From contig JAMDHS010000030.1 in the NCBI GenBank assembly GCA_029717555.1, positions 62,001 to 126,000 of the forward strand: DNA of 64,000 nt, in the 5' to 3' direction. The position numbers and the translations under genes were made by a program. The notes below the pieces were generated by a model. The model saw nothing but the letters and a program-made list of their open reading frames with translations, did no database searches and was not told where the DNA came from. Source of the stretch: Peribolospora baueri (Eukaryota > Basidiomycota > Peribolosporomycetes > Peribolosporales > Peribolosporaceae). Positions 46,802 to 48,800 of the stretch are shown here, one piece after another; within the stretch, counting starts at the first letter, position 1; the number at the start of each line of letters is the position of its first letter.

Positions 46802-47652
46802 TTAGTAGTTGCCCTCCACGGTCTGGAAGAAGAACTTGACCTCTTTGCCGGTCAAGCGGCGGTACACGGAGGAGAAGGAGTCGAGCTTGTACTCGAGCGA
46901 GGTGGCGTCCTTGGCGTCGAGGTAACTAATGGTGTAGGGCAGAGTGAAAAAAAGAAAAGGACATTCAATCAGTGAAACTGGGCGAATTGCGACGCCGTTC
47001 GCTCGTTCGCTCGCCGGGTCCGTTGCGGACGATACTCACACCTTGAGCAACTTGTGGCCATCGGTGTTGACGCGGGTGCGCTTGCCGGTGATGTCCGAAG
47101 GGTAGACGAGATCCTCGAGGATGGCATCGTGAACGGCGGTGAGGGTGCGCGAGCGCGGCCTCTGCTGCTTGACGCGGGAGTGACGGCCGGGCTTGCCAAG
47201 GATGCGGCGCTGGGCGACGAAGACGACGTGGCGGTCCGAGAACTTCTTCTCGAGCTCGCGGGTCAGCCTACAAAAAAGAGCGAAATGACGGGGAAAAAAA
47301 GGCGAGCGTTGAGTGTTGATGCTAACAATGCCGACCACTGCCTGCACACGACCGACCGGTCGACCGGTCGCCCGTCCTGGATCGCACCCCAGCGCCGCGT
47401 GCACACACACCTCTGCTGAATTTTGTGGAAAGCCTTGATCTGCGGGACGGGGACAAAGATGACGATCGCCTTCTTGCCACCCTTGACGTCGACTTCGCGA
47501 GCGGCAGAGATTTGGAGGGGTCGGAGCTCAGCCTTGAGCTCAGGGACGTTGTTCTCGAGGTCGACGAGAGCCTGGGCGACGGTCTGCTCGGTCTCCGAGG
47601 GAGCCGTCTTGGGCGCGTTGGCGCTCCGGTAAATCTTGTGCGAGGCAGACAT
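46802..47652 (-). CDS. RPS7: 40S ribosomal protein eS7
   Basis: Three exons, 47411-47652, 47040-47267 and 46802-46925, give 197 residues, the normal eS7 length. The start is [20 protein letters not shown]. Conserved blocks are [100 protein letters not shown] and the end VEFNY-like element [14 protein letters not shown]. It sits in the small-subunit body and takes part in 18S rRNA maturation. It is divergent from the U5 snRNA gene across about 315 bp carrying two TTAGGG-type motifs. Confidence 0.97.
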
Positions 47653-47792: not shown

Positions 47793-47803
47793 CTAACCCT
47801 AAC
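47793..47803 (+). promoter_or_regulatory. CTAACCCTAAC element, eS7/U5 promoter
   Basis: A telomere-repeat-like element about 140 bp upstream of the eS7 start codon. It is in the opposite orientation to the copy at 47846-47861. Tbf1/TRF-type Myb factors bind TTAGGG motifs at ribosomal-protein promoters in several fungi; use here is inferred. Confidence 0.6.
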
Positions 47804-47845
47804 AAGAGCGGATCTTCGCACGCATCGACTGCGGTGATCAGGCAA

Positions 47846-47861
47846 CTAGGGTTAGGGTTGG
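47846..47861 (+). promoter_or_regulatory. CTAGGGTTAGGGTTGG element, eS7/U5 promoter
   Basis: Two overlapping TTAGGG-type units lie between the eS7 start and the U5 gene, about 120 bp upstream of the predicted U5 start. With the reverse copy at 47793 it makes an inverted pair. Confidence 0.6.
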
Positions 47862-47937
47862 TAGAGATCCTGCACAGTACGGCAGTTCGGCGTTTCGGGG
47901 TTTTGCGTTGTCGCCGATGGCGAGACACGGATGCGTC

Positions 47938-47943
47938 TATAAG
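47938..47943 (+). promoter_or_regulatory. TATA box of the U5 snRNA gene
   Basis: TATAAG lies about 30 bp upstream of the predicted 5' end of U5, the usual spacing for a TATA-directed Pol II start. Confidence 0.6.
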
Positions 47944-47968: not shown

Positions 47969-48107
47969 AAACTCTTTCCTCATCACCCTCGAGCAGGTCG
48001 ACCCTCACAGCATGTCTCAAACGCCTTTTACTTTTGAGACCCAGGGCGGTCGGCCTACCAATGCTCGAGTGCTCCAATTTTTTGCCCCCTTCCTCTCCGA
48101 GGAACTG
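47969..48107 (+). ncRNA. U5: U5 spliceosomal snRNA
   Basis: The invariant U5 loop I sequence GCCTTTTAC (48023-48031) sits in a loop closed by a perfect 8-bp stem, GTCTCAAA (48014-48021) with TTTGAGAC (48033-48040). A second, outer stem pairs CTCGAGCA (47988-47995) with TGCTCGAG (48062-48069), again perfectly, and CCCT with AGGG fits between them. An Sm site AATTTTTTG follows at 48076-48084, and a short 3' stem-loop TTCCTC/GAGGAA at 48090-48104. This order of variable stem, loop I, stem closing, Sm site and 3' hairpin is the U5 architecture. U5 loop I aligns the exon ends during both steps of splicing. The ends are estimates: the 5' end from the TATA box and the 3' end from the hairpin. Confidence 0.92.
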
Positions 48108-48112
48108 TTTTG

Positions 48113-48145
48113 AGCCCGTCGCCCATCAGGGCGGCGGGCTTTTTT
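48113..48145 (+). terminator. GC-rich hairpin plus T6 just downstream of U5
   Basis: AGCCCG-T-CGCCC (48113-48124), loop ATCA, GGGCG-G-CGGGCT (48129-48140): two perfect blocks of 6 and 5 bp separated by a single T/G pair, ending in a run of six T (48140-48145). It lies 9 nt after the U5 3' stem-loop. It could be the 3'-end formation or processing signal of the U5 precursor. Confidence 0.5.
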
Positions 48146-48707
48146 GCGTTCGGTGCATCTCTGCACTCGGTTTGCCTCGGTCGTGTGTCGCGACTCTCGC
48201 TTACCTGTATGACCTCTTCTCTGATGAATGATGAATGCGTTGAACATGTCGATGGCGGTCTTCGCGTAGCGAGGACCGCAGGTGATGCTTGCTGTCAGCG
48301 TCTCGCTCGTCACTAGTAACCGTCGTGCTTGCCGTTGTACCTCGTCGTAAAGCTCGTCGGATAGACACTGGCACGGCCATGATCGCCTTATCAACGGCCA
48401 GTGTTGGGGGACGGTGGCAACGACGACACGTTCTCTTCCAACACATCTAGACTTCCCCATTTATGCACTTATCCTCAAGGATGGGTACGCCGTCGCGTCA
48501 CCTAGCGTTGGCACGGCCGTCCTCTCTGGCAACTCCGTCCACCATCATTCCATTGTCTTCCGCTCATTAAGGGACAGCGAGCGCACGACCAGAGCGAAGT
48601 AGACGTAGCGTTGTTCGACGGTTAGGATGTCGGCAATGCAGTGGAAATGAAGTTGGGATGGTAGGGATTGAAATAAAAAGCATCGCAAAAATTATTCAAA
48701 AAGCAAC
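48146..48707. other. Intergenic between U5 and tRNA-Thr
   Basis: No gene is supported. A minus-strand frame at 48017-48460 overlaps U5 antisense and has no domain. The AT-rich part near 48650-48707 holds the tRNA 3' flank, including TTTTT on the minus strand (48696-48700 on the plus as AAAAA), a Pol III terminator. Confidence 0.45.
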
Positions 48708-48800
48708 TGCCCTCGACAGGACTCGAACCTGTGACCTCTCGCTTACTGGTGTTGAAGAACACCTACTAGGCGAGCGCTATAACCACTAGGCGACGGGGGC
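48708..48800 (-). tRNA. tRNA-Thr (anticodon AGT) with a 20-nt intron
   Basis: Read on the minus strand, the T arm is perfect (ACAGG, loop TTCGAGT, CCTGT), the anticodon stem is CTCGC/GCGAG, and the loop reads CT-AGT-A followed by an intron after position 37 and a closing A. Removing the 20-nt intron leaves 73 nt. The intron folds on itself (GGTGTT, CTTC, AACACC). The acceptor stem GCCCCCG/CGAGGGC has one C-A mismatch at pair 5-68 and the D stem is weak (two pairs). The discriminator is A and G1-C72, C2-G71 fit threonine identity. A and B boxes are intact and a T run follows. Probably functional; the mismatch leaves some doubt. Confidence 0.82.

Follow-up and report, generated by a model that had tools for sequence, protein, structure and literature searches.

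Introduction

Loop 1 of the U5 small nuclear RNA (snRNA) aligns exon ends in splicing, and in the basidiomycete yeast Rhodotorula hasegawae snRNA genes carry introns. As for the 3' ends of fungal snRNAs, the closest described system is that of the fission yeast S. pombe, where the RNase III Pac1 is present at U1, U2, U4 and U5 and not at U6, where the mature U1, U2, U4 and U5 are followed at once by stable hairpins whose loops measure 3-5 nt, and where exclusion of Pac1 from the nucleus causes Pol II to accumulate downstream (PMC8421224, accessible sections). In a study of 15 selected fungal species, no 3'-extended pre-snRNA structure common to them was found (PMC10584915, accessible sections).

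Here we describe a U5 gene in a stretch of 64,000 nucleotides from the basidiomycete Peribolospora baueri (contig JAMDHS010000030.1, positions 62,001 to 126,000; hereafter the window), together with searches of the genome (22.1 Mb in 178 contigs, GC about 60%). The U5 gene is ordinary in itself; the interest lies in a 3' element that it shares with the U1 and U2 genes. For the joint claim that the locus is U5 and that it ends in this shared element we estimate a probability of roughly 0.93, a figure that leaves out any RNase III step.

A U5 snRNA gene in the window

An earlier note had called a U5 snRNA at 47969-48107, beside a gene for the ribosomal protein eS7, from the loop, its enclosing stems, an Sm site and a 3' hairpin in that order, and had proposed a covariance search with the Rfam U5 model (RF00020) as a check. 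When all 4227 Rfam families were run over the whole window with permissive filters, this model matched the locus over its full length with 45.1 bits against a cut-off of 40 (E 4.2e-4), a margin of only 5 bits, and every one of the parts named was present at the place given for it (Table 1). The loop is closed by an 8-bp stem (48014-48021/48033-48040), followed outwards by a stem of 8 bp with 3 bp more inside (47996-48003/48048-48055) and by a basal stem of 8 bp (47988-47995/48062-48069). The computed fold of 47982-48107 has a z of -4.28, and 0 of 200 shuffles were equally stable. The assertion that the combination lies far beyond chance is thus upheld by the covariance match and the fold, but does not extend to the nine-nucleotide loop by itself: 0.27 such loops are expected per window on average and 21 of 100 window shuffles contain one, so that the loop alone is weak evidence.

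Like U5 spliceosomal RNA of RF00020, the locus combines a score above the gathering cut-off with loop 1 on a closed stem, the same loop sequence and stem order, and an Sm site with a 3' hairpin after it; it differs in the six T of its Sm site, and nothing else unusual was noticed. Judged by its sequence, the locus at 47988-48107 is therefore a U5 snRNA gene, a further member of a known family and an already-known kind of RNA. Under Rfam default filters, U5 was not reported at 47988-48107 in the window, which may be why automatic annotation would overlook it; the gene thus fills an annotation gap, since it passes the cut-off and is yet missed under those filters.

Table 1. Coordinates of the U5 gene and its surroundings in the window
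Feature	Position	Strand	Remarks
eS7 ribosomal protein gene	46802..47652	-	three exons; start codon 47652-47650, stop 46802
telomere-repeat-like boxes	47795..47859	.	AACCCTA at 47795; TAGGGTT at 47847 and 47853; between eS7 and U5
TATA box of U5, TATAAG	47938..47943	+	44 nt upstream of inferred 5' end
U5 snRNA gene, inferred extent	47982..48111	+	mature 3' end within about 48105-48111; both ends inferred
U5 covariance match, RF00020	47988..48107	+	full length, 45.1 bits
U5 loop 1, GCCUUUUAC (DNA GCCTTTTAC)	48023..48031	+	covariance match and sequence inspection
predicted Sm-protein binding site, AAUUUUUUG (DNA AATTTTTTG)	48076..48084	+	upstream of 3' hairpin
U5 3' terminal hairpin, 6 bp	48090..48104	+	downstream of Sm site
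hairpin directly 3' of U5, 13 bp (11 bp without T-tract bases), loop AUCA	48112..48141	+	
CTTTTTTGCGTTCGG box abutting U5 hairpin	48139..48153	+	CTTTTTTGCGTT common with U2, all 15 bases with U1

Searching the genome with the U5 stretch as DNA returned one match, the stretch itself, and the pattern GCCTTTTAC-N25..55-ATTTTTTG likewise occurred once in the 22.1 Mb (reversed control, 0). The genome-wide Rfam search for U5 gave no match, the known locus in the window included; it is therefore insensitive, and a second, diverged copy could still be present. The idea that no better U5 lies elsewhere hence agrees with the DNA and pattern searches and gains nothing from the Rfam search. In viral_contigs the U5 pattern picked out 10 stretches, none of which was U5 at the gathering cut-off; in this search mode the U5 of the window is missed as well.

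We place the 5' end of U5 at 47982, probably 13 nt inside the start of 47969 first given for it, because of the spacing of the TATA box and of the sequence TTTCCTC/AT, which spans the start in both U1 and U5. With U5 starting at 47982, TATAA begins at -44 in U1, -41 in U2 and -44 in U5, and the first bases of U2, U4 and U5 are all AUC; the covariance match starts 6 nt further in, at 47988. In the 110 nt examined upstream of U4 and of U6 there is no TATA. The extent proposed earlier is thus likely to be wrong at its 5' end and plausible at its 3' limit of 48107, though it leaves out the element at 48112-48150 that we describe below. The TATA box that it had put 30 bp upstream does exist, 31 nt from 47969 and 44 nt from 47982. 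Two 7-mers are common to the upstream 200 nt of U1, U2 and U5 (TTCGGCG at -119, -122 and -96; ACTGCGG at -183, -92 and -154), against a mean of 0.12 in mononucleotide shuffles. The former, at 47886-47892 in the window, is a possible upstream snRNA promoter word.

A hairpin-T6 element common to U1, U2 and U5

Five bases past the end of the covariance match, a further hairpin begins, the stem of which abuts a run of six T (T6) and GCGTTCGG. This U5 3' element (48112-48150), a 13-bp hairpin abutting TTTTTTGCGTT, has a shape like that of a bacterial terminator. The U2 gene ends in an element of the same build (TTGAGCCC-stem-GGGCTTTTTTGCGTT), and so does the U1 gene. Across U1, U2 and U5 the stems measure 13, 16 and 13 bp (26-32 paired nt) and the loops read UUCG, UUA and AUCA, T6 abuts the stem without a gap, and GCGTT follows, invariant.

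What distinguishes this element is the hairpin and the box jointly, and neither the 11-mer CTTTTTTGCGT nor a generic terminator alone. The bare 11-mer occurs at 13 genome sites, compared with 12 for its reversed control, and is thus not enriched. A perfect stem of at least 11 bp abuts three of these 13 sites, namely U5, U2 and a third locus, which is U1; a fourth site (L041) has a weak stem of 9 bp made partly of the T-run. Among background positions, taken every 7 bases from the extracted loci (some overlapping) and the window and so not only beside T-runs, 26 of 57596 (0.045%) have an abutting perfect stem of this length. The looser pattern GAGC-N12..42-GCTTTTTTG gave 35 genome matches (19 for the reversed control); in the 30 examined, an abutting stem of at least 8 bp was found twice, at U5 and U2 only. 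A generic terminator scan near U5 returned 5 sites compared with 2.9 in shuffles, the U5 hairpin having the longest stem.

The stems of the three genes differ in a manner that keeps them paired. When their outer ten pairs were aligned (inner pairs and loops removed by hand, the T-run serving as anchor), 30 of 30 cells paired, and 5 of the 10 pairs had changed on both sides, that is, in a compensatory fashion. For four of five covariation measures, a single one of 500 shuffles came up to the observed value, and for the fifth, further pair types, 20 of 500 did; these counts are not probabilities, as the tool itself warns, and three sequences amount to a strong hint at most.

The element is absent from U4 and U6, which have downstream T-runs of at least 5 but no abutting stem of at least 4 bp. 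Downstream of U4 (L005:1684-1760), two similar short hairpins (ACTCTC...GAGAGGGGTT) stand in its place. In the literature searched, with most subscription papers outside reach, we found nothing that describes an snRNA 3' box of this sort, and the shared module seems to be a new form of the known snRNA 3' hairpins.

The module also serves as a handle for diverged snRNA genes, and it led to U1 here. With the Rfam covariance models, U2 (L004:1501-1690) scored 140.6 bits, U6 75.6 bits and U4 64.2 bits; U5, U2, U4 and U6 match their models end to end and are intronless, unlike the snRNA genes with introns of Rhodotorula hasegawae. A genome-wide Rfam search for U1 found nothing. Two 5'-end patterns were tried and their matches rejected: CTTACCT-N-ATCANGAAG had one genome match, which by eye resembles coding sequence, and ATACTTACCTG had three, none with a U1 covariance match at E 0.05. 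Both failed because U1 here starts ATACTTACCTT. U1 was found at last through the 3' motif CTTTTTTGCGT, at L051:1324-1501, where the U1 model, with a cut-off of 69.5, scores only 22.1 bits (E 0.0086); going by its bases, this locus is U1, because of its AUACUUACCU 5' end, its loop AUUGCAC, its Sm-like AAUAUUU and the shared flanks. Its 5' end reads AUACUUACCUUGUG, the Sm-like site lies at L051:1459-1465 and the hairpin-T6 begins at 1472, with 6 nt between them. Upstream of U6 we noticed a sub-threshold match to the C/D snoRNA sR55 (L003:1763-1822, minus strand; 30.6 compared with 35 bits), probably due to chance.

Possible routes of 3'-end formation

The hairpin has a probable role in 3'-end formation, either through cleavage by an RNase III or through hairpin/T-tract termination. 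The shared module offers a testable case of snRNA 3'-end formation in a fungus. By analogy with fission yeast, we give cleavage approximately even odds. In such a scheme Pol II, the polymerase that we infer for these genes, would start from the TATA box that lies some 44 nt before 47982. The transcript would adopt the U5 fold, with loop 1 tethering exons and Sm proteins binding at 48076-48084, and its 3' end would be set by the downstream hairpin and T6-GCGTT element that the U1, U2 and U5 genes have in common. A Pac1/Rnt1-like RNase III would cleave the hairpin in the nascent RNA, after which exonucleases would trim back the snRNA and displace the polymerase.

Compared with the hairpins of Pac1 in fission yeast, those described here are alike in being stable, small-looped and directly 3' of U1, U2 and U5; unlike there, none is found at U4, an invariant T6-GCGTT lies against the stem, and the enzyme is only a candidate. 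Sites of Rnt1 in budding yeast carry an AGNN tetraloop, and none of the three loops here is AGNN. The stems of 13, 16 and 13 bp compare with a helix of at least 20 nt, or 23-32 'nucleotides', in the accessible sections of PMC8421224, a unit that is ambiguous and would make our stems short if it stands for base pairs. RNase III alone leaves the invariant T6-GCGTT unexplained. Moreover, the U1 hairpin lies 6 nt past the Sm-like site, and cleavage would therefore leave U1 without a 3' stem-loop. Stems that may be short, T6-GCGTT, U1 geometry and a U4 without the element thus speak against RNase III, and the first three of these fit a terminator better. Also on that side of the balance are the candidate enzyme described below, in which no dsRNA-binding domain was found, and the 15 fungi mentioned above, among which no pre-snRNA structure was common.

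The same U5 gene might instead end in an intrinsic-type Pol II terminator, a proposal that rivals only the RNase III step and leaves the identity of U5 unaffected. The GC-rich hairpin would form inside the exit channel as the polymerase pauses on T6, and the RNA would be released without an endonuclease, its mature end arising by trimming in U5 and U2 and directly in U1. T6 directly against the stem in U1, U2 and U5, followed by the invariant GCGTT, speaks for such a terminator. In U1, no stem-loop other than the hairpin seems to follow the Sm-like site, and with only 6 nt between the two, a terminator-like hairpin may therefore double as the last stem-loop. The T6 within the Sm site of U5 has no abutting hairpin and would presumably be read through. 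The present elements share with a bacterial intrinsic terminator a perfect, GC-rich stem, a loop of 3-4 nt and a T6 that follows at once; they differ in belonging to nuclear genes of a eukaryote and in having conserved bases past the T-run, and their action on Pol II is only proposed here. We know of no natural hairpin-dependent Pol II terminator, which counts against this route. Pol II does release RNA at T-tracts in vitro, and others cited in the same source observed that lambda or Pol III T-tracts caused no release without an upstream hairpin, but at the site tested the hairpin was dispensable and a 5-nt T-tract terminated little (PMC7615648, accessible sections). The fission-yeast precedent, too, is an endonuclease (PMC8421224, accessible sections). 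On balance we regard terminator-like release as the less likely of the two routes, and the fuller proposition, that the co-varying hairpin-T6-GCGTT at the end of the U1, U2 and U5 genes is a dedicated module, terminating Pol II as a bacterial intrinsic terminator does, as more doubtful still. What these two routes leave over falls to mixed or other ones.

More distant explanations fare far worse. In animal U6 genes, Pol III transcribes from a TATA box to a T-run terminator. Such transcription here would suit the TATA at a near-fixed distance and the T6 at the end; it is very improbable because the Sm site of U5 itself contains a T6 (48078-48083), at which Pol III should stop. In addition, U6 here has neither a TATA in the 110 nt examined nor the hairpin, and Sm-class snRNAs are Pol II products in fungi. 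Slightly less probable again is that the hairpin-T6 is a small dispersed repeat without snRNA function that stands after three snRNA genes by chance. The bases past the stem, nearly identical across the three copies, would suit a repeat, but the stems differ through paired changes, and no further copy with such a hairpin turned up among the 13 sites of CTTTTTTGCGT or the 30 sites examined, of 35, of the looser pattern. Least credible of all is a U5 pseudogene or chance fold. The margin above the Rfam cut-off is modest, and the locus was missing from the results of the genome-wide family search; that search is insensitive, however, and neither the DNA nor the pattern search found a second U5. 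The locus has its loop, Sm site, hairpin, TATA and 3' element intact, and it shares the last two with U1 and U2.

With regard to cleavage by RNase III, an exon-by-exon search of the genome found three loci with the RNase III domain PF00636. One (L053) matches mL44 of the mitochondrial ribosome, and another (L054), a split RNase III gene, we infer to be Dicer-like. The third (L055:1222-2091) encodes a stand-alone RNase III domain, with 32.7 bits for PF00636 on the spliced protein against a cut-off of 27. Its nearest solved chains by phmmer are Ribonuclease 3/DROSHA entries, with an E of 2e-6 summed over two weak stretches, and a domain search of the spliced protein found no dsRNA-binding domain. 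The acidic positions of the RNase III active site are, by eye, in place. L055 may thus be considered a candidate enzyme for cleavage of the hairpin. Of note, a non-Dicer RNase III of Cryptococcus, Rde3, has been studied in RNAi (PMC6643885, accessible sections).

The neighbourhood of the gene

The eS7 gene, rightly named as the neighbour in the earlier note, was identified by matches of PF01251 in three minus-strand ORFs; it is divergent to U5 and lies 330 bp away from the inferred start of U5. Its spliced protein matched 53 eS7 chains, with yeast-named entries among the best, whereas phmmer with the first exon alone gave no match. Among 40 candidate stretches for eS7 relatives in genome_contigs, none was confirmed. 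The telomere-repeat-like boxes between the two genes, which occur in both directions, are probably promoter elements of eS7. On the other side, 0.6 kb downstream of U5, lies a tRNA-Thr gene (AGT; 48708-48800, minus strand) that carries an insert at the position of the intron.
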